Program-made: the position numbers and the translations under genes
Source: Leptobrachium leishanense
Lineage: Eukaryota > Chordata > Amphibia > Anura > Megophryidae
Direction: 5' to 3'
Length of the DNA stretch: 64,000 bases
Assembly: GCA_009667805.1 (NCBI GenBank)
Contig: CM019065.1
Location: forward strand, 13,955,952-14,019,951
Notes under the pieces: generated by a model
What the model saw: the letters and a program-made list of their open reading frames with translations, nothing else
Told to the model about the DNA's origin: nothing
The model's database searches: none
Shown here: one piece after another, positions 2,686-47,117 of the stretch
How positions within the stretch are numbered: position 1 is the stretch's first letter
How the letters are laid out: each line of letters starts with the position of its first letter

Positions 2686-3129
2686 CCACACCGGAAGCAA
2701 ATGGGTAGTTGATGGCGCAATGCGTTTTTACAAATTGTCCATCTACAGCACAACTCACCACACCGCTCAGAGGAGAGCAGGGTTACATTGGCCCCCTGTA
2801 TCTCCATTGTTTATATCATCCCACAAGTTCAGGTTAGGCATCAAGGGACAGGTCAGAGTCTGGTCTTTACCATGACACCATACATGACCATGTAAAATCT
2901 AAAATAGATTTTGTGGTGGGTGTTGTTTTGGGATGTTGGTTTGGAGAGCAAAATTGCAGGTGGCGCCCAAAAAAATGTTTGCCCAAGGCCCAGTTAATAT
3001 AAACCACTTGGCTGTGGAGGAAAACTCAGCGCATCGTTATGAACGGGCCTAGCGTGCAGATGACTCGCTGAGTGTGTCCTCACTTTGCAGCTGCGATTGG
3101 CCATAATTTCAGCAAATCGCTGTGGTCTT

Positions 3130-31748: not shown

Positions 31749-31894
31749 GGCTCAAGCCTCAGCTCTTTCCCTGAGACTTGTAGCCATTACACCTCACTAG
31801 TTTTATTCTCGAGTTCCTCATACTTGGGGGGCCTATTTTTGTTGGGAACATACCTTGTGGATAATCAGTGGTATATTTTGTGTCTGTGTGGGTG

Positions 31895-32149
31895 TCAGTG
31901 CTTTCTTGCATAATGGCAACATTCATAATACATTGTCATCTCACACAATCCATTCAGGGCCGCACTGATCTGTTCCAGTGCCATATCATATATCATTTGT
32001 ACCTTTCGTATCTCCCGTATTTCCAGATTCAGCACCTGAACATCCCAACTAGTCTTATTCAAAATCTCATCCATCAAATTGGCATAACTGGTCAGTCTTA
32101 CCATCAACTCTCCTCCCCATCCAGTCCATACCGGAAGCCATGCCCACAT
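31895..32149 (-). pseudogene. ERV env, TM-like fragment
   Basis: An 84-codon minus-strand frame with a heptad-like stretch (VLNLEIREIRKVQ) followed by MALEQISAALNGLC and a nearby CC pair. This is the layout of the ectodomain of a retroviral transmembrane subunit. The cytoplasmic part and fusion region are not intact. It lies between the nested LTR element and the 3' LTR, where the end of env should be. The rest of 31749-32596 shows no long frame. Confidence 0.5.
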
Positions 32150-32601
32150 TCAATCCGCTCTCCCAGACAACTCTCTCCTCTGTCCCCCAAACACCAGTGG
32201 ACACCCAGGGCGAAGCGTTGTGTCTGAATTAGTGTCTTCTCCCCTCACCCTCTGGATTGAGATCAATTTAGCCAAATAACATTTCCGTTACTGTAGGTGG
32301 TACCCATATGTAACACACTCTTTCACAGCACACCTGGTACTCTCCTTTCACTATAATAGTGACAAATGTAGTGTTTTTTAATATCGCTATTGTAGCTGTC
32401 TCAGTCGTTTCATCATATCCACTTCATCCTGCCTTCCATTGGTCACATTCGCATCACCTCCTCTTGCTCGCTTGTGAGCTTTCTACATCGTATGTATAGA
32501 AATTTTGACGGCTCCTTTGTATTAAAATATGTAAATGTATGATATCCAGTTGAACTTACTTGAATAACATAACCCATCCCCGTTATTTATCTCCTTATCT
32601 G

Positions 32602-33329
32602 TGTCACGTCTCGGCCTTGCCCCCTGCTGCTGGTGGTAGCAGGGATTCCTGTTTATTTTTGTTTTCAGCCTGCAGCTATCTTGTTGGGCTTATTGGCCTG
32701 CGGTCATGTGACCTGTTCTGCCCTATAAGTACGACCAGGACTCCCCTTGATCCTTGGATCAGGATAGTCTTTCATACCTAGTCCCTGTATGCTGGTGTAC
32801 TTTGATTTGCTGTGTATGACCTCTGCTTATGTATTTAGGATCCCTCTCTTGCCTGACCCCTCTAGTATGATATTCTGTGTATGACTTTGGCTCTTGTATC
32901 TGGATCTCTCTTCTGTCTGTCCCTGTACTGTACCGTGCTTTGGAATTTGTATGCTTGCATTTATTGTCTGTCTGGTTTATGTTTTGTTTGTCTTGCAAAC
33001 CTAGCCTAGCTAGTATTTCGAGACCACCTTTCAAGGATCTCAGTCAGGGCTTAGGGATCTTTCTAGTTTCTGTTATATCTTGCTTTGTTCCCTGGAATCT
33101 GTATACCTGCATTTATTGTCTGTCTGGTTTATATTTTATTCATCTTGCAAACCTAGCCTAGTTAGAATTTCGAGACCATCTTTCAAGGATCTCAGTCAGG
33201 GCTTAGGGATCTTTCTAAGTTCTGTTAATATCTTGGTTTGTTCCCTGGAAACTGTATACCTGTCCTTAAGGCTTCATCTCTCTGCAGATTGGGGGTTCCC
33301 CCTCACCCTATAGGGGGCTCCCCGTTACA
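32602..33329 (+). repeat. 5' LTR of the nested element
   Basis: 728 bp. Contains CCCTATAAGTACG near 32721, a likely TATA box. It also has an internal tandem duplication of about 155 bp (around 32950-33105 and 33106-33260), shared with the other LTR. Confidence 0.9.
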
Positions 33330-33751
33330 TTATCCTGATCCCAAAACAGAAGCTGGCAGGTATGTCTCATATGTATGAAGCTGTATTGAACTTGGTGCTT
33401 GCTATGCTAAAAGAGCTGCAGAGGTTAATAGAGGCTCTGAGCCTATCACCTGCTGCAGCTAACGATGCAGCACCACCCTGCACTACTTGCAAACCCATAT
33501 CGGAGAAGGAAAGACGCAGGTTGTATGGTCTCTGTTTTTTATTGTGCAGATCCAAATCACACTATTGAACATTGTGTATTAAAGCCTGTTAAACAATGGC
33601 AGGGAAACCATGTATCCAGGTATCGCTATGGAGGTACTGGTGTGTCCTCCATAGGCATTCAGACTGGCAGAATAGCCATCTCAAATCTGTTGAATCATGG
33701 GATGCCCTCTTCTCACAGTGAGGTTGCAGTGTCTCCGGTTAGGAATGTTAT

Positions 33752-34072
33752 GCCAGCCATGTCTGTATCTACTGGCACGATGCCAGCCATGTCTGTATCC
33801 ATTGGCACGATGCCAGCCATGTCTGTATCCACTGGCACGATGCCAGCCATGTCCGTATCCACTGGCACGATGCCAGCCATGTCTGTATCCACTGGCACGA
33901 TGCCAGCCATGTCTGTATCCACTGGCACGATGCCAGCCATGTCTGTATCCACTGGCACGATGCCAGCTATGTCTGTATCTACTGGCCACGATGCCAGCTA
34001 TGTCTGTATCCACTGGCACGATGCCAGCCATGTCTGTATCCACTGGCACGCTGCCAGTCATGCCTGTTCTCA
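33752..34072 (+). repeat. 30-bp coding repeats, block A (about 10)
   Basis: Unit CACTGGCACGATGCCAGCCA TGTCTGTATC, encoding GTMPAMSVST. An extra C near 33987 shifts the frame. Confidence 0.9.
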
Positions 34073-35165
34073 CTGGTAATGAAAAGCCAGCCATGCCTGT
34101 TTCTCACTGGTAATGAAAAGCCAGCCAGGCCTGTTCTCACTGGTAATGAAAAGCCAGCCATGCCTGTTCTCACTGGTAATGAAAAGCCAGCCATGCCTGT
34201 TCTCACTGGTAATGAAAAGCCAGCCATGCCTGTTTTCAACTGGTAATGAAAAGCCAGCCATGCCTGTTCTCACTGGTAATGAAAAGCCAGCCATGCCTGT
34301 TCTCACTGGTAATGAAAAGCCAGCCATGCCTGTTCTCACTGGTAATGAAAAGCCAGCCATGCCTGTTCTCACTGGTAATGAAAAGCCAGCCATGCCTGTT
34401 CTCACTGGTAATGAAAAGCCAGCCAGGCCTGTTCTCACTGGTAATGAAAAGCCAGCCATGCCTGTTCTCACTGGTAATGAAAAGCCAGCCATGCCTGTTC
34501 TCACTGGTAATGAAAAGCCAGCCATGCCTGTTTTCACTGGTAATGAAAAGCCAGCCATGCCTGTTCTCACTGGTAATGAAAAGCCAGCCATGCCTGTTCT
34601 CACTGGTAATGAAAAGCCAGCCAGGCCTGTTCTCACTGGTAATGAAAAGCCAGCCATGCCTGTTCTCACTGGTAATGAAAAGCCAGCCATGCCTGTTCTC
34701 ACTGGTAATGAAAAGCCAGCCATGCCTGTTCTCACTGGTAATGAAAAGCCAGCCAGGCCTGTTCTCACTGGTAATGAAAAACCAGCCATGCCTGTTCTCA
34801 CTGGTAATGAAAAGCCAGCCATGCCTGTTCTCAACTGGTAATGAAAAGCCAGCCATGCCTGTTTTCACTGGTAATGAAAAGCCAGCCATGCCTGTTCTCA
34901 CTGGTAATGAAAAGCCAGCCATGCCTGTTCTCACTGGTAATGAAAAGCCAGCCATGCCTGTTCTCACTGGTAATGAAAAGCCAGCCATGCCTGTTCTCAC
35001 TGGTAATGAAAAGCCAGCCATGCCTGTTCTCACTGGTAATGAAAAGCCAGCCATGCCTGTTCTCACTGGTAATGAAAAGCCAGCCATGCCTGTTCTCACT
35101 GGTAATGAAAAGCCAGCCATGCCTGTTCTCACTGGTAATGAAAAGCCAGCCATGCCTGTTCCCAC
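34073..35165 (+). repeat. 33-bp coding repeats, block B (about 33)
   Basis: Unit core GGTAATGAAAAGCCAGCCAT plus GCCTGTTCTCACT, encoding GNEKPAMPVLT. Extra A residues near 34230 and 34832 (TCAACTGG instead of TCACTGG) shift the frame. AGGCCT replaces ATGCCT in every fourth to sixth unit or so. Confidence 0.92.
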
Positions 35166-35174
35166 TGGCAATGA

Positions 35175-35735
35175 ATGCCAGTCATGTCTGTATCCACTGG
35201 CACGAAGCCAGCCATGTCTGTATCCACTGGCACGAAGCCAGCCATGTCTGTATCCACTGGCACGAAGCCAGCCATGTCTGTATCCACTGGCACGAAGCCA
35301 GCCATGTCTGTATCCACTGGCACGAAGCCAGCCATGTCTGTATCCACTGGCACGAAGCCAGCCATGTCTGTATCCACTGGCACGAAGCCAGCCATGTCTG
35401 TATCCACTGGCACGAAGCCAGCCATGTCTGTATCCACTGGCACGAAGCCAGCCATGTCTGTATCCACTGGCACGAAGCCAGCCATGTCTGTATCCACTGG
35501 CACGAAGCCAGCCATGTCTGTATCCACTGGCACGAAGCCAGCCATGTCTGTATCCACTGGCACGAAGCCAGCCATGTCTGTATCCACTGGCAATGAAAAG
35601 CCAGCCATGTCTGCTTCCCCTGGCACGAAGCCAGCCATGTCTGCTTCCCCTGGCACGGAGCCAGCCATGTCTGTTCCCACTGGCAATGAAAAGCCAGCCA
35701 TGTCTGCTTCCCCTGGCACGAAGCCAGCCATGTCG
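35175..35735 (+). repeat. 30-bp coding repeats, block C (about 14, then variants)
   Basis: From about 35190 to 35590 the 30-bp units (CACGAAGCCAGCCATGTCTG plus TATCCACTGG) are identical base for base, which points to very recent expansion or homogenisation. Variant units with TGCTTCCCC follow. Confidence 0.92.
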
Positions 35736-36892
35736 GGTACTGACAATATGTCATTCATGATGCCTGAGGCTGGTACCTTGCCAGTGGTGTCCGGGACAAG
35801 CTGTACGTCAGCAATGACAGCTGTACCCAGGTTAGACGAGACAGCTGTGACCACGTTTTGTTATGAGGCCGATGTGCCTGGATTGGCACATGAGACCACT
35901 GTGCCCTTGCCCCACAGTGAGTCCAGTGTTGTCCCCACCATTGTCAAGCCTTGTGAGGTGGTCACAAAGTCTAAGAGTAGACAAGAAAAGGTGATCAACC
36001 CTAGCCAATCTGGTTCTGAAACTGCCACACTTTGTTCTGGTTCCATTGATACTACACCCTCTAACTCCGAGGTTGCCTTACTCTGCACAGTAATCAGGGA
36101 AATTCAGCAAGCTGGTGGTTTAAAGAATATTGAGATCCCTAAATCACATGGTGTTCCTACGGACATTATACGGACGCCTTCCGGCTTTTGGATGCGTGAG
36201 AGGCACTGGGTAGTGCTCCAGAGACACCCTGACATTCTGAAAGGGCTGTTGGAAGACTCTGATTCAGATGATCAACAATATACTCCTCCTGGGGAGAGGT
36301 GTAAGACTGTTGTGGCGCCACCTGTACCATGTCCTGGTGATGTCCCATATCCCGAGGGTGTACCAGTCATGCACACACCCTGTACTGTATCAGTCGGGGC
36401 CACGTTTCATGGCAAGGTCATTGTCTCTGGGGTAGACAGTAAGTCCACGGTGTCTAGTGGTTCCACTGTGGGTTGTAATATACAATCTCGGGGCACGACT
36501 ACTGTCACTGGATCTGGCAGTACCTCTAATACCTCTATGTACCATGGTGTGGACGGAACTCCTAGATCACGGTCCAGGAGACGCAAGAGGACTAAACAAC
36601 CTGGGACTGATGATTCACTCCGTTCAAAGTCCAAGGTACTCATGCCGTCGGATCCTCGGGTACGAGACCCTAGCCCGGTCGCCGAGGGTTGTGTACGGGC
36701 CTCTAATGGTGCAGTGATCTGCAGAGAGGACCTGGAGGTTTATGAAAGAGCTTTGCTTGCTCAGGCACATGCTGACTACTCTGAGTCTGAGTGGGATTCC
36801 CATGGGTACTGGTGACTGGCCTTGTCCGTTTTCACGCCGTCCCTGTTTTCTTTCTTGGGTGCCCAGGAGGTCACCCGTAAGGGGGGGGGTTA

Positions 36893-37619
36893 TGTCACGT
36901 CTCGGCCTTGCCCCCTGCTGGTGGTAGCAGGGATTCCTGTTTATTTTTGTTTTCAGCCTGCAGGCTATCTGTTGGGCTTATTGGCCTGCGGTCATGTGAC
37001 CTGTTCTGCCCTATAAGTACGACCAGGACTCCCCTTGATCCTTGGATCAGGATAGTCTTTCATACCTAGTCCCTGTATGCTGGTGTACTTTGATTTGCTG
37101 TGTATGACCTCTGGCTTATGTATTTAGGATCCCTCTCTTGCCTGACCCCTCTAGTATGATATTCTGTGTATGACCTTTGGCTCTTGTATCTGGATCTCTC
37201 TTCTGTCTGTCCCCTGTACTGTACCGTGCTTTGGAATTTGTATGCTTGCATTTATTGTCTGTCTGGTTTATGTTTTGTTTGTCTTGCAAACCTAGCCTAG
37301 CTAGTATTTCGAGACCACCTTTCAAGGATCTCAGTCAGGGCTTAGGGATCTTTCTAGTTTCTGTTTATATCTTGCTTTGTTCCCTGGAATCTGTATACCT
37401 GCATTTATTGTCTGTCTGGTTTATATTTTATTCATCTTGCAAACCTAGCCTAGTTAGAATTTCGAGACCATCTTTCAAGGATCTCAGTCAGGGCTTAGGG
37501 ATCTTTCTAAGTTCTGTTAATATCTTGGTTTGTTCCCTGGAAACTGTATACCTGTCCTTAAGGCTTCATCTCTGCAGATTGGGGGTTCCCCCTCACCCTA
37601 TAGGGGGCTCCCCGTTACA
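36893..37619 (+). repeat. 3' LTR of the nested element
   Basis: 727 bp, matching 32602-33329 with only small insertions and deletions (for example CTGCTGCTGG versus CTGCTGG). Confidence 0.9.
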
Positions 37620-37624
37620 ATCTG

Positions 37625-38078
37625 GGCCTAATTGAAAACACCATTCTGGTGGGTACACTGGTCCTGTTATGGGGTACCCAGGACTGAATACTTCTGGTTT
37701 CTCCCTTGACCTATCAACTGCCTGTACTGTAACATTTTCTGATACAAACATACTCAAATTCATTGGGACAGAGACGAATGGTATATGAATTGTCTCTGGG
37801 TGCAGTCTACTACACACCCAGCACACAGTTTGCCCAGACTTTTTGGGATAGTCATATTTAAATTGCACAAGTAAATGTCCTCTTGGCAAAATCTCGGATG
37901 TCGCCTCTCGCTTTTGCCTGCACATAGTACGATTCTCCATCACTGGGTGCGTACCATTCCAGATTTTGGTGGTGCTTGTGCACTTGGGGCATACTCCACG
38001 TGACAGTCCATAAATCAAATTTGCAAAATACAAAATCAGTACCACAATTGCCCCAAATATCAAAAATCCCTTGAGCAA
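37625..38078 (-). pseudogene. ERV env, N-terminal part
   Basis: The frame opens with Met at 38078, 13 bp past the integrase stop, in the expected env position. Residues 5-25 are hydrophobic (FLIFGAIVVLILYFANLIYG), consistent with a signal peptide. Cys pairs include CPKC and CWVC; the latter resembles the CXXC motif of class I surface subunits. Possible N-glycosylation sites are NGTH, NRTM, NLSM and NVTV. The frame is cut at 37624 by the nested LTR retrotransposon. Env would mediate receptor binding; here it is truncated and cannot. Confidence 0.7.
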
Positions 38079-38090
38079 TTCTTTTCACAG

Positions 38091-38395
38091 TCACATAAAC
38101 CCAATCTCTCCCCACCGGAATTTCAAAAACCAAAAAAAAACATTTCCGGCAATTTCTGTCATTGATTTACCTAACAGTACAACCTGATCATTTAGTTTAG
38201 TTTTCCCCAATGCCCGAAGGTCCCCCCTTAGTCCATTAATCAGAGGGGTAGGCCGTCCAAACATAAATTCGTACAGACTTAGCTTCAATTGGGGGGTGGG
38301 CCTGCACCTAATGTGTAATAAGACTATCGGCAGCACATCCAACCATCCTAATGGGATCTCTTGGCACAGTTTGGACATCAAAGTCTTTGCGGTTC
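38091..38395 (-). pseudogene. ERV integrase C-terminal fragment
   Basis: Minus-strand frame with GWLDVLPIVLLHIRCRPTP, then LYEFMFGRPTPL, a pattern seen near the end of the catalytic core and start of the C-terminal domain of retroviral integrases. The HHCC domain and the catalytic DDE core are absent; the OGFR-like segment is found upstream instead. Without the core it cannot join DNA. Confidence 0.7.
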
Positions 38396-38399
38396 ATTC

Positions 38400-38742
38400 T
38401 CTCGAATTTTCTGCTCGTTCAACTTCGGTTTCTTTCTTGTATATCTTCTCCATACTCCCCCATTAATTTTACACCGAAGAATTTCAGCATCATTTCGTAT
38501 ACTCTGCGGAGTCTTTGCTGAACTTCTGAGGTGTTAATCATAAAACGTGTCTCTTGCGGGTTCAGAGGAGTGGAGTAGAAATTTCGGCCTTGGGACCAGA
38601 TTAGAAAAAGCCATTGGATATAATCATAATTTAGTTCTAGCAGTACATACTTGTCTTGCCATTTGTGCAGTATAATTTCAATGAACTTGCCTCCAGATTC
38701 AAATTTTCTCCAATTCGTATAAAATTTGTAGTTTGGCATGGC
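38400..38742 (-). pseudogene. OGFR-like domain fused behind ERV RNase H
   Basis: From about residue 57 of the frame starting at 38910, the sequence follows the order of the opioid growth factor receptor conserved domain (OGFR family, Pfam PF04664 as I know it). It shows MPNYKFYTNW, then GGKFIEIILHKWQDKYVLLE and YDYIQWLFLIW. Next come TPLNPQE, EVQQRLRRVYEMMLKFFGVK and, in the adjacent frame, VERAEN. OGFR proteins are cellular nuclear-envelope-associated regulators of growth. The segment is in one frame with the RNase H end, contains no visible intron, and stands where integrase should start. It ends by frameshift near 38420. I infer capture of a cellular transcript; function within the virus is unknown. 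Confidence 0.72.
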
Positions 38743-38802
38743 AGGTTGGTCCTCTTGCTTGCAGAGCAGGACTTTGGCTTGATCAGTTGTCAGCAATGGT
38801 TT

Positions 38803-39152
38803 TGCAGCCGCTTTTGAAGCCTGGTCAGCGCGCCTGTTGCCTTTTGGGATTTCATCATGACCTTTCTGGTGGCCCGACAATGCAAAATACTGACAGCACT
38901 CAGTTTCCATACAGCTTCTAGGAGGGCCGTGATTTCAGCTGCATACTTAATACGTTGTCCCGAGGAAGTAAGTAGGCCTCTCTCCTTGTAGAGTGCACCA
39001 TGTGCATGGACAGTCATGAAGGCGTACTTGGAATCAGTGTAGATATTCACCCTTTTGCCTTCAGAGATTTCTAGAGCCCTGGTTAAAGCTGTTATTTCAG
39101 CCAGTTGTGCAGATGTATGGCCTGGTAGTGGACTTGCTTCGATAATCTCTTC
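38803..39152 (-). pseudogene. ERV RNase H domain, downstream part
   Basis: Minus-strand frame with SAQLAEITALTRALEISEGK, NIYTDSKYAF and AHGALYKERGLLTSSG, typical of retroviral RNase H. It ends, after a frameshift near 38910, in GNRRADQASKAAA. The start of the domain (LFTDGSSYMDDG) lies at about 44160-44200, on the other side of the nested LTR element. RNase H removes the RNA strand during reverse transcription. Split and frameshifted. Confidence 0.82.
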
Positions 39153-39644
39153 TGATAAATTTGGATTTAAAGCAAACAAAACAAACTCCCTATAATAATT
39201 ACCATTTATGAAATTTCAATAAACCTTTTTCAAGTTTCTTCTCATATATCAAAGTTGAAAACAGGGCGCGGCGCGTCACCATGGCGAGAGACAACAAAAT
39301 CAGCCACAAAGCAATGTAGCGTCAGTCCTGTCTGAAATATCCTTCCTTAGACAGGTCTTTTATTAGATTTCAAAGAACTTATAGCCAATCAGCATACAGA
39401 TACATTTCTACGTCAGAGTTTAACCAACAGTGAGCCAAAAATTACTATATTGATTCAGAGATGGCTTTTTCTAGCATACACTTTTCTAGCATCCATCCAC
39501 TGTTCACACACCCTTTCCTGCACACAAAGGAAATGGCTAAATTCCACAGGCTAACATCCTATGCAAGTAAAAGACTTGCAGGGTTTGACACTTATAATGG
39601 GGGGGGGTGGATTCACACTACCTATCATATTAAAATACCTTTCA
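39153..39644 (-). repeat. LTR of copy 1 (3' side)
   Basis: 492 bp. Differs from 43637-44124 by one extra ATCC and about one substitution, so the insertion is young. Confidence 0.9.
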
Positions 39645-42600
39645 ATCGTCTCATTGATCACATATACAATCGTGATCACAAAAAGGGATGAAACAAACTA
39701 GACAATTAAACTAATTATACCTGGGGCCATAGTGTCCTTGCCTAATACCTGTACGATATACGAAAAGGAATCCCCAAGGATGCCCTTTATGAGCATAAAA
39801 TACACTTATCTATCTAGATTCACTCTTCCAGCGAACCACATTTGGAGCGTAGGCAAAAATACCTAATCTAGACATTAAATAACTATTTATTCCCATTTCC
39901 CAAAATATAATTCACCGAACAAGAAAAGTATAATAACTTGAATGTAAAAGTTCATTTATCTAATAAATCAACATGAGTCAGATCTATATCTGTGTGTTTT
40001 CCTATGTTCAGCTTCACTCCACAAAACGCATATACACCTGCATTCATACACACATTCAAGACATACATTCTCATTTTCACAAATTAAATCCTTTCTCACA
40101 CTTATCTAGGGGATTAAATAAAAAAATAATATTCCATAATCTAATACCATAGTCCACAGTGCGAGATCAGGGTGTGGTCTTTTTTTCAACATCCCAGCTT
40201 GAGACGCATAATCATAGAATGTCATCAGAGCTCCCACCATAGGGACTCCTGAACAAGCTGTCTCTTTGCGCTGGTTGCTTATTACCTGTGACCTTTGACC
40301 TTGACACAAAATGTCCATGATTCGTTCCATATGCAGTCATTGTGACTGTCAGGTTTCTTGATGATGTGATATGGTTTTAGCAACAATAAAGAAAATAAAA
40401 AAGAAAAGAAAATATGGTATACCCCGCTAATCATATACATCCATTCATTCATTGTCACTCTCAAATGCACGAAAACAATTAAAATGTTAATTTACACAAG
40501 AAAAGACACAGATAATAAATTTCAAAATGTCCCCACGAAGCCTGTCGGCCTCACGCAATAAAAAAATTATACTACTTCTGACTCATTGTTAGAGAAAAAT
40601 ATATATACGCAACTTTGGCTCAAAAGGGAAATAGCCGAAGTGCATATTCCACCCTTTTATTAAATATAATTATTTTTTTTTTTTTAATTACTATCCTATT
40701 CAGTCTTGTTCGGTGTTGTGAAACAAACCTGGCGTTTATAAAACACACCAATCCTCAAATGAAATAAAAAATAAAAAAATAAAAACAGCATTAATTTTAT
40801 CGAATTAAAACTTTCCATTTACCACTATATATGTCATGAAACGTATTTATGCAAATGCATTAAATTATATGTTCCTAAATACATGAATGAACTCTAATTT
40901 TAATTGGATGTGATCTTCAATAATCCTAAATGTGTCAGGGAATTTTGAACAATAGTGATTGTAACTAAACAACAAAAATAACAAAATATAAAATAATAAA
41001 AGACACAAAATAATTATCACTTAGACGACATCAGAATATAAAAATACATTATCTTCTTTCTTTGTCTTCTGTCTTATTGGTTGAAAATAACAGTTTTGTA
41101 AAACTGACATGTCTTAAATTGTATTTCCAAATCAATGATCTTCTATAAATAGCATGATTTATTGATGAGTTGTCGATAATCAGATTGTTTTATTGCCTGG
41201 TGTCTGATAATTCCTTATTATCCGGTTGATGTAACATTGCAATGTGAAATGATAATGTGTTTGAGTAAATTTCCTTAAATTCCAACATCTTTATCAATAT
41301 TGGTATCGCATAATCTTCCATCTAGCTTGAGCAAAGTTGGCATGCATGGGTAATTTTCACCTAAAGTAAAAACTTGGGAAAAAATGTATTATTAACCTGT
41401 CAAAAACTTTAAAATTCATATGGTTAAAATACTTTTAAAATGGAGAAAAACAATGCAACACATTTTTTTTTGAACACAAAGAAAAGGAGTGGTCATGAGT
41501 GAGACAACACGGAGGAGAGGAGGGGTCATGAGTGAGACAACACGGAGGAGAGGAGGGGTCATGAGAGAGACAACATGGAGGAGACTAGGAAAAGAATGTG
41601 AACTTCAATTCACATAAAAAAAACACAACAAAAATATCATGAACTGGGAAAGAAAGTATAGAAGGGCATGTTTAAAACTTGACGCGTTAATTAGCACAAA
41701 GTTCTCAGAGGAAACTCAGAGAAAAGGATTCTTAATAAACATCAATAATCTTTATTAAGGATATTGTTTAAAAACAAACATTCAAACGTGAGGTGTCTGT
41801 GCAGCTATTTTACAACCTGTTTTATTCCCTCCAAGAATATTCAATGGAGGCAAAGTTATACGCTATTGCACTTCACACCAAAAAGACAAAAACATCAGAC
41901 AGCAAAAAAATAATACTAGACATCTGGCTACCACTGCAGAAAAAGAAAACAAATCAAACAATACTCAGATACCAAACTACAACCTTCCATCTCCCTTAGT
42001 CAACTAAAATAAAACCCAAAAAACCACCTTCTCTTATTTGAAATCTGCCTAAATTCCTTTGTACAGCGCTACTAAACCTGTAGGCGCTTTCCTTTAAACT
42101 TTCACTCAAATCCTTCAGCTTTATATCACTTCATCCTCTTAGATTCCAAACAACTAAACATGAACCTACATATATATTCCATTATACAAGTTACAAAACT
42201 GTAAATGATCTCAGTCAGCCATTTTGGCAAAACATATAACCTATATTAAGGTGCGGTCAATCCCTTAGTGCTGGACTCAAACAAAGACCAGAGGAAAATA
42301 ACCGACCACGCCTCTCTTGGGAAAATGTACAACTTTGAGCCCATCACCTTGATACACTACTTTTTTTTATATATATATCATACGCCGAAGCTCTCAAACC
42401 GCGCCCAATTCCACAACAGTTAGTTTCATAAAGCACTAATAGCTCCAAAATTCAACTGCTACTACAGTCTTTCAAGGCATTAGACACATGTCATTTGTAT
42501 ATACTGTTCAATTATCCCAAATAGATACTCACAGAACAACAAAAATAACTACATATTCCATTATCCAACTTGCACTGCTAAAAGACTACTAGCATTCAAA

Positions 42601-43636
42601 GAAAAAAAATCCTTATACAAACACATAATAACATTATACATTACAAATAAAGAGTTTCTTTAATTAAATAAAAAGAACAAAGAGAAAAAATGAATGTATG
42701 AGAAATAGAAAAAAAGTTAGCAGGCGCTTTTGAAAGTCACTGTAAAAGTAAAGTCTCCATTTCCTGTGCCATTTCCTGTGCCTTTTTTTTTTACACGAGG
42801 CAAGGCAGTAATGACAAAGAAACCTGGTTTACGAAAAACAGTCCCTATACATAAATTACATATAAAAAACATAATATCAAAACTACGAAATACAAAACAT
42901 CAAAGATACACACATATATTAATAGTTAGTAAAGACAAACATTTAAATAAACAGACGCAATCAATGGCCAGAAACAAAATAAAAAAATAAAACAAAAACA
43001 AACATGCAATCTGAAAGAAAAAACAGTTAGCAAATCCTTTAGAATCAGCGCGCAAACACATGCAGCAAAAAAATAAAGAAAAAAAATGGCAGCAGCGCGC
43101 AAGAAAATAAAAATAAAAAATTAAGAGGAAAAAAAACTGTCTCTCAATGGGAGATTAAAGCAGTTGATATACAAGAAGAAAATCTACTCAGTTAAAATAA
43201 AATTCTCACAATTACAAGATATGGACGACCCAGAAACACCAGAATTGAAGTACAAGATATACACAGAACGGAGACAAAACAACTAGAAACATCTCGTTTC
43301 TTTTTTTATGAGTTCAATTTCCAGCAAATACAAATACTCAGCACACAGCGGGCGAGTTCAAACACACGTGAGGTCCTCAAACGATTTTCCTTTACTACAA
43401 TACATAAAATGACAAAAACAAATCAAGACAAAGAGTCCAACCTTGCACCAAAAAAAAAAAAAAAAATTCAAAAAAAAATCAACAAGCTCTGAACCATAGC
43501 TTTAACTTCAAGGAAACCAAGCCTGGAGGCAAGTTCGCAAAATCTGAACAAGCAAATGTAAGAATATATTCAAATGTAAAGATACACTTATATATATGGA
43601 TACATCTGAATGGCAAATCCCACTTCAGACAACAAC

Positions 43637-44124
43637 TGATAAATTTGGATTTAAAGCAAACAAAACAAACTCCCTATAATAATTACCATTTATGAAATTT
43701 CAATAAACCTTTTTCAAGTTTCTTCTCATATATCAAAGTTGAAAACAGGGCGCGGCGCGTCACCATGGCGAGAGACAACAAAATCAGCCACAAAGCAATG
43801 TAGCGTCAGTCCTGTCTGAAATATCCTTCCTTAGACAGGTCTTTTATTAGATTTCAAAGAACTTATAGCCAATCAGCATACAGATACATTTCTACGTCAG
43901 AGTTTAACCAACAGTGAGCCAAAAATTACTATATTGATTCAGAGATGGCTTTTTCTAGCATACACTTTTCTAGCATCCACTGTTCACACACCCTTTCCTG
44001 CACACAAAGGAAATGGCTAAATTCCACAGACTAACATCCTATGCAAGTAAAAGACTTGCAGGGTTTGACACTTATAATGGGGGGGGGTGGATTCACACTA
44101 CCTATCATATTAAAATACCTTTCA
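43637..44124 (-). repeat. LTR of copy 1 (5' side)
   Basis: 488 bp, nearly identical to the other LTR. The adjacent interior holds the primer-binding region. Confidence 0.9.
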
Positions 44125-44159
44125 TCTTCCGCTGAGACTATTGCATAGTCGGAGACTTT

Positions 44160-45397
44160 CTACCCATCATCCATGTAGCTGCTACCATCAGTGAACAACT
44201 GTAGATTGTATTTGTCTAGGGGTACGTCTTTCAAATCTGGCCTGCTACTGAACACTTCTTCCATGACTTGGAGGCATTCATGATCTGGATCCTCTTCGCA
44301 GTCAGGCAGTAAAGTAGCAGGGTTCAAGGTAGCGATGAGGTCTAAATGAACCTGTGGATTCTCACACATCATAGCTTGGTACTTCGCCATCTGGCTGTTG
44401 CTGAACCAGTAGCTTCCTTTGACGTCCAGCAGGGCTTTGACAGCATGGGGCACCTTGACATGAAGAACTTGGCCAAGTGTCAACTTGTCTTTGGTTGGGG
44501 TATTCGGCATACTGCTTCTTTTCTTTCTCTTAGCCCCCAGTGTACACTTGGTACCTGTTAATTGAAAACCGAGATATTTCACAATCTGTTTACATATTTG
44601 TGCTTTCTTTTTGGACACTCTGTAACCTGCATGGCACAGGAGATGTAGCAGGGCTTTTGTGGCAGAGAGACAGTCGTTTTATATGGGAAAAGCCCGTAAT
44701 TAATAATCAACATACTGTAATAGAACAACTTCGTGTGGCTGAGCGTTGAAGGACAAGAGATCCTGGCTGAGCGCGCATCCATTGTAGATACCTCCCACTG
44801 AAAAATAAAAAGGGGTTGTCTTGCTGGAACAATAGTGTGTTCCACTGTGTCACGCAGAATTTCAATATGCCGTGGTCTTTAAATCTCTGCAAATATGTCT
44901 GGATATTCTGCTTGGCTTTTTGTGGGATGTGATAGTGTCTTAAAGCCACAGGCGTTGCACCAGATCGTAAATCATCGTACACTAGGGAAATATTTACAGC
45001 TAGTCCGGGCGGGTTTTCCTCCACCCACACCTCAGGAATTTCAAGGAGTAGTGTGTGCGGGTCCGTGGGCAGCCGGCGGGGTTGGTGCAGTACGCCATTC
45101 TTCTTCTCTGGGCATAATTACTGCAAAAAAAAATAATTTTTGGGTTGGATGTACTGGCTGGCTGTACTGCCGTGCAGAGCTGCCACTCTCAGACAGGTCT
45201 AATCTAGCGTGACCCCCGGGAAAAAAACCCATAATTTGGGCTTGCAATTTGCAAAAAATATCCCGCCCCAGGAACTGGATGGGACATTCGGGCATATACA
45301 TATACACATTGTATAAACAATATTCACAGAGGTCTCTCTCCCGTAGCCAAAACGGACTCTTAATACCACATCGGAAAAAAAAAAAAAAATAAACCAC
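44160..45397 (-). pseudogene. ERV protease end and reverse transcriptase, broken
   Basis: Reading right to left, CPIQFLGRDIFCKLQAQI (about 45230-45285) is the end of a retroviral protease with its Gly-Arg-Asp motif. The next frame (44707-45030) is the RT N-terminus. 44579-44845 spans the palm. The frame at 44160-44618 has VKYLGFQLTG and the connection domain, ending in LFTDGSSYMDDG, the start of RNase H. The catalytic palm motif is degenerate (its last Asp is not kept) and lies beside a stop, and part of the palm appears deleted. Several frameshifts separate the blocks. The protease active-site segment is not found. Confidence 0.78.
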
Positions 45398-46769: not shown

Positions 46770-47117
46770 TTATGGGGGGGGTACCTGCTTCTTATGTCCC
46801 GCCATCATTATAAAATAACTTTTATCCTTTACACAATACTTCCATATATCTATATATGGGTACTGCTCAGGCTGTCCGCATTTCCCGGTGACTTGGGAAT
46901 GCACTTTCTGTATTAACTGCGGGTCCATTGACCCCTGCTCTGGCCACTCTGGAACTAGCAGTGGCCACACAATTGTACACATTAATGTTAGCTTCTCCTT
47001 AGTTAATTCCACGCCATAGTCATGCGTTGTATATAACACTTCAAAATTCCGCACCATATACCCTAGGGGCGTCTCACCCTCCTTTACCTTCTTGGGCTTG
47101 GATGACCCGTTACCCAT
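46770..47117 (-). pseudogene. ERV Gag matrix domain
   Basis: Met at 47117 starts MGNGSSKPKKV, with Gly2 and a following Ser as in N-myristoylated retroviral matrix proteins. I chose this start over an upstream in-frame Met for that reason. VKEGETPLGYMVRNF, LTLMCTIVWPLLVPEWPEQG and IWKYCVKD follow in the order of a gammaretrovirus-like matrix fold. The frame stops after a C-rich run (about 46777-46784), where a one-base shift seems likely. Matrix would direct Gag to the plasma membrane. Downstream Gag is not recoverable by eye. Confidence 0.75.

Follow-up and report, generated by a model that had tools for sequence, protein, structure and literature searches.

The order of pol is rarely changed in retroviruses. 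A described addition is the dUTPase gene, which the lentiviruses that express it carry in pol, flanked by RNase H and integrase (excerpted text of PMC4531489). A different type of acquisition is that of host messages, crocodilian endogenous retroviruses (ERVs) having captured KIT-ligand or nectin3 mRNAs (excerpted text of PMC4299795). The case dealt with here, from the frog Leptobrachium leishanense, is an ERV family whose pol carries OGFr_N (PF04664; also OGFr below), the domain of OGFR, the opioid growth factor receptor, and of OGFRL1. It came to attention through a decayed copy in a stretch of 64,000 nucleotides (nt) of contig CM019065.1 (assembly GCA_009667805.1, positions 13,955,952 to 14,019,951 of the forward strand), the whole of which is termed the window. 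There is very little doubt about the anatomy or the capture of the domain in this pol gene.

The earlier note on the window, drawn up from its letters, had picked out a minus-strand frame that starts in the end of RNase H and passes unbroken into a segment laid out like the OGFR domain. Re-reading bears this out: the frame 38910-38419 (-) is open for 163 codons with a stop at its end, and the sole Pfam family matched in it is OGFr_N (E 1.2e-24, 87.4 bits versus a cut-off of 22). The match is real and far above chance, and comprises half a domain, frame residues 55-154 aligning with profile positions 3-102 of 208. RNase H is represented in the frame by a tail of only ~24 residues because of a frameshift near 38865; the RNase H match proper (PF00075, E 8.9e-13) is upstream in a neighboring frame, 39215-38790, whose opening residues are the end of an inserted long terminal repeat (LTR) and not pol.

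The same profile was run over the 3.54-Gb genome from which the window comes. Scores were obtained for 150 of 5,871 first-look candidates and all exceeded 240 bits, which disposes of the prospect, held out by the earlier note, that the OGFr piece might be present at this locus only. The OGFr-bearing ERVs are a large family, with thousands of candidate copies. In 133 of the 150 scored copies, a list that favors high scores, the domain is free of stops, and in 11 the frame around it is at least 1,400 codons long. When 30 loci were fetched by OGFr score, with pieces of up to 1.5 kb on each side, the order sought from other copies recurred many times over, 25 of these OGFr-picked loci having RNase H upstream and 29 at least one integrase domain downstream. 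The best illustrations are two loci, L020 (1,066 codons) and L029 (990 codons), each of which encodes RNase H, OGFr_N, H2C2, rve and MLVIN_C in one frame without a stop, so that the in-frame joining of an OGFR-like cellular domain to ERV pol after RNase H, first proposed for the window, holds well beyond it. OGFr_N in L020 scores 250.1 bits and spans profile positions 5-204 of 208. In another copy, C1689, the frame around OGFr extends for 1,440 codons, the 819 codons before the domain (L034) specifying protease, reverse transcriptase (RT) and RNase H, and the 415 after it (L042) the integrase zinc domain, core and C-terminal domain. Protease, RT and RNase H are likewise found in the upstream pieces of two further copies (L039, L041).

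Where the domain sits within pol can be judged from L029, in which no alignment of a solved RT/RNase H chain extends past residue 355, OGFr_N occupies 371-576 and residue 627 is where the best match to integrase begins; by these alignments OGFr_N is at the RT/integrase boundary. The best solved RT matches of L029, p80 RT/RNase H chains, are presumably entries for murine leukemia virus (MLV) or the related XMRV. Other MLV-type features are the Gag_MA domain in the window (PF01140, E 4.2e-11) and PF18697 in L029 (E 1.1e-17). All five displayed proviruses have TG...CA LTRs and 4-bp target-site duplications, and a 4-bp duplication is given for the ERV1 class in Table 1 of PMC4299795, from which excerpts were available. 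By duplications, LTR ends and MLV-type domains the carrier is assigned to the class I (gamma/epsilon-like) ERVs. In the downstream pieces of relatives a further frame overlaps the end of pol, and is termed env-like because of its position and env-type features, including a visible motif that we take to be of CC type. Just after the 5′ LTR (L128, L130, L132, L136, L138 and their partners) there is a primer-binding site region, which resembles, and does not equal, the proline-tRNA type.

Some of these proviruses integrated recently and the family was apparently active until recently: in six of six copies whose frames are 1,294-1,440 codons long, the two LTRs agree at 98.2-100% of positions over 575-690 nt, though these copies, having been picked for long frames, are not representative of the family in age. 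A sample chosen independently of OGFr gives another perspective on how regularly the domain is present. It was selected with PF18697, the family of the integrase C-terminal domain (5,807 candidates, 150 scored and 30 fetched), and being composed of the best scores for one integrase type, it covers one type of ERV lineage. OGFr is present in 24 of the 30 loci, making it the usual, not the universal, state in this sample. Among the six others, L140 and L158 break off too soon for a verdict, L143 has neither OGFr nor the integrase core, and the remaining three are weighed below. Four of the 30 (L149, L154, L164, L167) have a similar deletion, from the end of OGFr to core residue 69-81, and its sharing suggests an amplified, internally deleted subfamily.

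As to the source of the domain, host OGFRL1 was found on contig C4 by means of a human OGFRL1 query, and its exons were read from the fetched DNA. (With a query for the OGFRL1 domain, the 150 places scored, of 46-53% identity, resemble the ERV list, and the host gene is not among them.) Four introns, with GT and AG signals, split OGFr_N of the host gene at or just after ...PFKPDG, IQW, YEIE and HLNE, whereas the aligned ERV copies are continuous across these sites, L022 and the window copy not reaching to all four. It is because the host domain has four introns and the aligned proviral copies none that capture from spliced RNA is supported; the exon-border comparison was one that the earlier note had proposed, along with the plausibility of an RNA-level route. 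The domain is the same over its full length in host OGFR/OGFRL1 and the ERVs, 15 ERV copies being 43-51% identical to host OGFRL1 across it, with the differences that the host protein continues past it and that the ERV copies are a clade of their own (ultrafast bootstrap 91; 14 copies, the window copy excluded), outside the pair of host and human OGFRL1. The capture was probably a single event, and looks old, while some of the elements that carry its product are young.

If the domain were dispensable, relaxation of constraint might be discernible in substitution patterns. The ratio of nonsynonymous to synonymous substitution (dN/dS) was calculated by the Nei-Gojobori method with exclusion of pairs of very low or undefined dS, stop-bearing copies and partial matches, which favors low values. 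For OGFr the median is 0.18 among the OGFr-picked loci (176 pairs from 20 copies without stops, out of 30 in which a single match covers the domain), for which the median dS of 1.45 is near saturation, and 0.15 among the integrase-picked loci (66 pairs from 12 stop-free copies, of 16 such). Corresponding values, OGFr-picked first, are 0.10 and 0.05 for RNase H (the latter from 5 copies), 0.06 and 0.03 for rve, and 0.08 and 0.12 for the integrase C-terminal domain. These figures point to purifying selection on OGFr, retention without selection at such divergence being unlikely. Several groups are common to the tree of OGFr and that of RNase H plus core from 14 loci.

The wider distribution of the domain is pertinent to what may have been retained. 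Bacterial relatives are common, with 259 confirmed OGFr stretches, and 45 of the best 80 (L048-L127) are cyanobacterial by record title. Relatives occur also in viral contigs and in one Marseillevirus, with a match in one phage record being weak (34% over 58% of the query). These bacterial, viral-contig, phage and giant-virus proteins belong to the same family and have the YIQWLF and HNxLR motifs of the ERV domain, but are mostly stand-alone (median 179 codons over 83 loci, three viral contigs included) and branch separately from the group of ERV and vertebrate domains in the tree. Conservation among 49 bacterial and viral-contig proteins extends to 40 columns; in 28 of these the majority residue is unchanged among 15 ERV copies, and in the other 12 it differs. 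The columns kept include E35, H38, the YIQWLF run Y40-F45, H122, N123, R126 and R129 (L048 numbering), and we take them to be a retained ancestral surface for binding or catalysis.

We know of no established biochemical activity for OGFr_N. A possible pointer is one protein, in a 240-kb viral contig (L031:3344-4477), in which NADAR (E 4.1e-38) is fused to OGFr_N (E 1.8e-22). A scan of 47 proteins around bacterial OGFr genes (43 of 52 close same-strand neighbors plus four long OGFr proteins) yielded one with an ADP-ribosylglycohydrolase domain and, among 25 of 45 families, no recurring partner, the top ones, ABC transporter and HSP20, being in three of the 47 each. For a bacterial relative the fold was modeled with confidence (predicted local distance difference test score, pLDDT, 96.8). 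OGFr_N had no relative among solved structures searched by sequence, and matches in NCBIfam and PHROGs were weak (E 0.016 to 0.081). Expansion of the family is on record for the Manila clam, in whose genome OGFr, with 29 genes, is among the expanded gene families (excerpted text of PMC5499747).

The reading that we favor, and consider probable as a whole with anatomy and function taken together, is that captured OGFr_N is a fourth pol domain of a class I ERV family. The ancestor of this gamma/epsilon-like family would have gained it, probably once, from a vertebrate gene of OGFR/OGFRL1 type, with spliced RNA as the route and with insertion where RT-RNase H meets integrase, such that neither was lost. 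Made within Gag-Pol, the domain would be in fixed ratio to RT and integrase and would be packaged into the virion, either cut free or kept as an N-terminal extension of integrase. It might then act in early infection via a ligand-binding or catalytic surface kept since bacteria, as a fourth pol protein for which the dUTPase produced from the same slot in non-primate lentiviruses is the parallel. Taken on its own, the functional part, a virion-delivered fourth pol protein, is put forward tentatively, as a possibility that falls somewhat short of an even prospect. A more specific version, by analogy with dUTPase, is that the virion-delivered domain keeps an ancient activity needed in reverse transcription or integration, possibly ADP-ribose or nucleotide chemistry. 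The chemistry is mooted because of the NADAR fusion and the ADP-ribosylglycohydrolase neighbor, single cases each, and this version is quite doubtful.

Several observations weigh against this reading or parts of it. Three of the integrase-picked loci (L148, L156, L162) have room for OGFr and no match to it, so that loss or absence does occur, and among the sampled loci, of one integrase type, no copies were found of a sister lineage without OGFr that would represent the state before capture. On the source, the tree does not discriminate well between OGFR and OGFRL1 (bootstrap 54, with human sequences that, like those in the queries, may be inexact), and host OGFR was not located with a 40-residue query, the one match having an E value of 5.67 and surroundings that are not exon-like. 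No Pfam env family was matched by the two env-like frames scanned (L043, L045). OGFr changes faster than its neighbors, both in dN/dS (0.15-0.18 versus 0.05-0.10 for RNase H and 0.03-0.06 for the core) and in mean amino-acid difference (0.30 versus 0.19, 14 loci). For the same 14 loci its pairwise distances correlate poorly with those of RNase H plus core (r = 0.49), and L007, L012 and L016 switch partners between the two trees; recombination may account for both. Finally, Foldseek with the bacterial model gave no solved match at E <= 0.001.

This last null result bears also on a variant in which OGFr, attached to integrase, is a tether or nuclear-entry module that steers the pre-integration complex through contact with a protein by way of the OGFr fold. 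With no solved structure matched at that threshold, we regard the variant as unlikely. Host OGFR is a growth inhibitor, and a viral version might mimic or compete with host OGFR/OGFRL1, thereby altering growth control or defense. The degree of identity to host OGFRL1 noted above is in keeping with this. However, expression within pol would presumably mean low, virion-linked amounts, and the bacterial relatives indicate an older role of the domain, so that mimicry is likewise improbable. Less favored again is the view that OGFr is a passive passenger, a tolerated spacer without function amplified along with the provirus. Its faster evolution, its lack in some copies and flanks that seem free to change (linker 1 of L020 is matched in just one other of the 30 loci, L021) are what a passenger would be expected to show, but median dN/dS values of 0.15-0.18, retention of 28 of 40 ancient columns and, even allowing for a list biased to good scores, 133 stop-free domains out of 150 make it very unlikely. 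Replacement of the integrase N-terminal domain and core by OGFr, as the earlier note had it, accords with the window copy, in which the end of the core directly follows OGFr, but has next to no chance of being correct. In better-preserved relatives RNase H is followed by an OGFr_N and an integrase that are both complete, L020 and L029 encoding all three in a single frame, and the window can be aligned to L029 on either side of a ~970-nt gap with ~7 nt of microhomology.

The window copy itself is a badly decayed minus-strand provirus, extending from Gag_MA at ~47.1 kb to the end of the env-like frame at ~31.8 kb (Table 1). Its alignment to L029 covers 1467-1837 and resumes at 2798-3062, with an overlap of 7 nt between the two parts, and a later deletion cost it the latter half of OGFr together with most of integrase. 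The residues VERAEN, which the earlier note had read as the domain continuing in the next frame, are at the deletion junction, about 38405-38411.

Table 1. Remains of the OGFr provirus in the window and the elements inserted in it (window positions)
Feature	Position	Strand	Evidence
gag start, matrix domain of OGFr provirus	46773..47117	(-)	open frame; PF01140 Gag_MA E 4.2e-11, 43.2 bits vs cut-off 30
Reverse transcriptase remnant	44472..44807	(-)	tblastn with L014 RT piece, 62.5% over 112 aa, E 2e-36; L014 piece matches PF00078
RT connection and first RNase H part, to nested insertion	44124..44582	(-)	tblastn with L020 frame residues 54-207, E 3e-51
Foreign LTR element in RNase H	39153..44124	(-)	TG...CA, target-site duplication GAAGA, LTRs 493 nt, 99.0% identical
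Second RNase H part, frameshift near 38865	38803..39151	(-)	PF00075 E 8.9e-13; tblastn pieces
First half of captured OGFr_N, profile positions 3-102 of 208	38449..38748	(-)	PF04664 E 1.2e-24; alignment with 14 other copies
Deletion junction, ~7 nt microhomology, ~970 nt missing vs L029	38405..38411	(-)	two L029 matches overlap here
Integrase remnant, end of catalytic core and beyond	38151..38404	(-)	tblastn with L020 residues 882-962, 65% identity, E 2e-26
env-like frame, first part	37620..38139	(-)	tblastn with L043 frame, 72% over 161 aa, E 1e-77
Second foreign LTR element, within env-like frame	32615..37619		~655-nt repeats 99.1% identical, minisatellite-coding frame between; ends approximate
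env-like frame, remainder	31828..32614	(-)	tblastn with pieces of L043, L044, L045, L046; frame resumes at 32614

Of the two foreign elements, that in RNase H is recent and has no obvious long coding frame. The one within the env-like frame contains a plus-strand frame, 35175-36815 (546 codons), which starts with a minisatellite of ~30-33-nt units coding for repeats such as KPAMSVSTG.

Comparison with described systems is closest for the dUTPase of non-primate lentiviruses, which, as far as the excerpted source goes, occupies the same pol slot as an extra domain in frame and as part of Gag-Pol. The differences are that OGFr_N belongs to an unrelated, mostly helical family and that it is carried by a class I ERV instead of a lentivirus. 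The dUTPase family is not among the Pfam matches of the 19 scanned proteins and OGFr_N is; judged by these matches, what is in the dUTPase slot is not a dUTPase. ERV3 elements have likewise kept an additional domain in pol, a dUTPase, but according to the excerpts it is downstream of integrase, and both the domain and the ERV class are different (PMC4299795, PMC4531489). In the crocodilian KIT-ligand capture, as described in the excerpted text, a host mRNA was also acquired by an ERV with no viral domain lost, and purifying selection is reported (PMC4299795); the crocodilian cases involve other genes, whereas OGFr is inside pol and in a family of thousands of candidate copies. No report of OGFr in a retrovirus was found among the titles and abstracts listed from 5.39 million open PMC papers, a search to which subscription papers and repeat libraries are external. 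Capture of host genes by ERVs is known, as is an extra domain in this slot; the presence of OGFr there, as the usual state in a large family, appears to be new. Since an element under size pressure has kept the domain, the function of OGFr_N can be asked of the viral version, a naturally isolated one that provides a new handle on the role of a domain found from bacteria to vertebrates. To our knowledge OGFr would be the second kind of domain in the slot known from dUTPase, and one that is of host type, under selection and spread through this genome.
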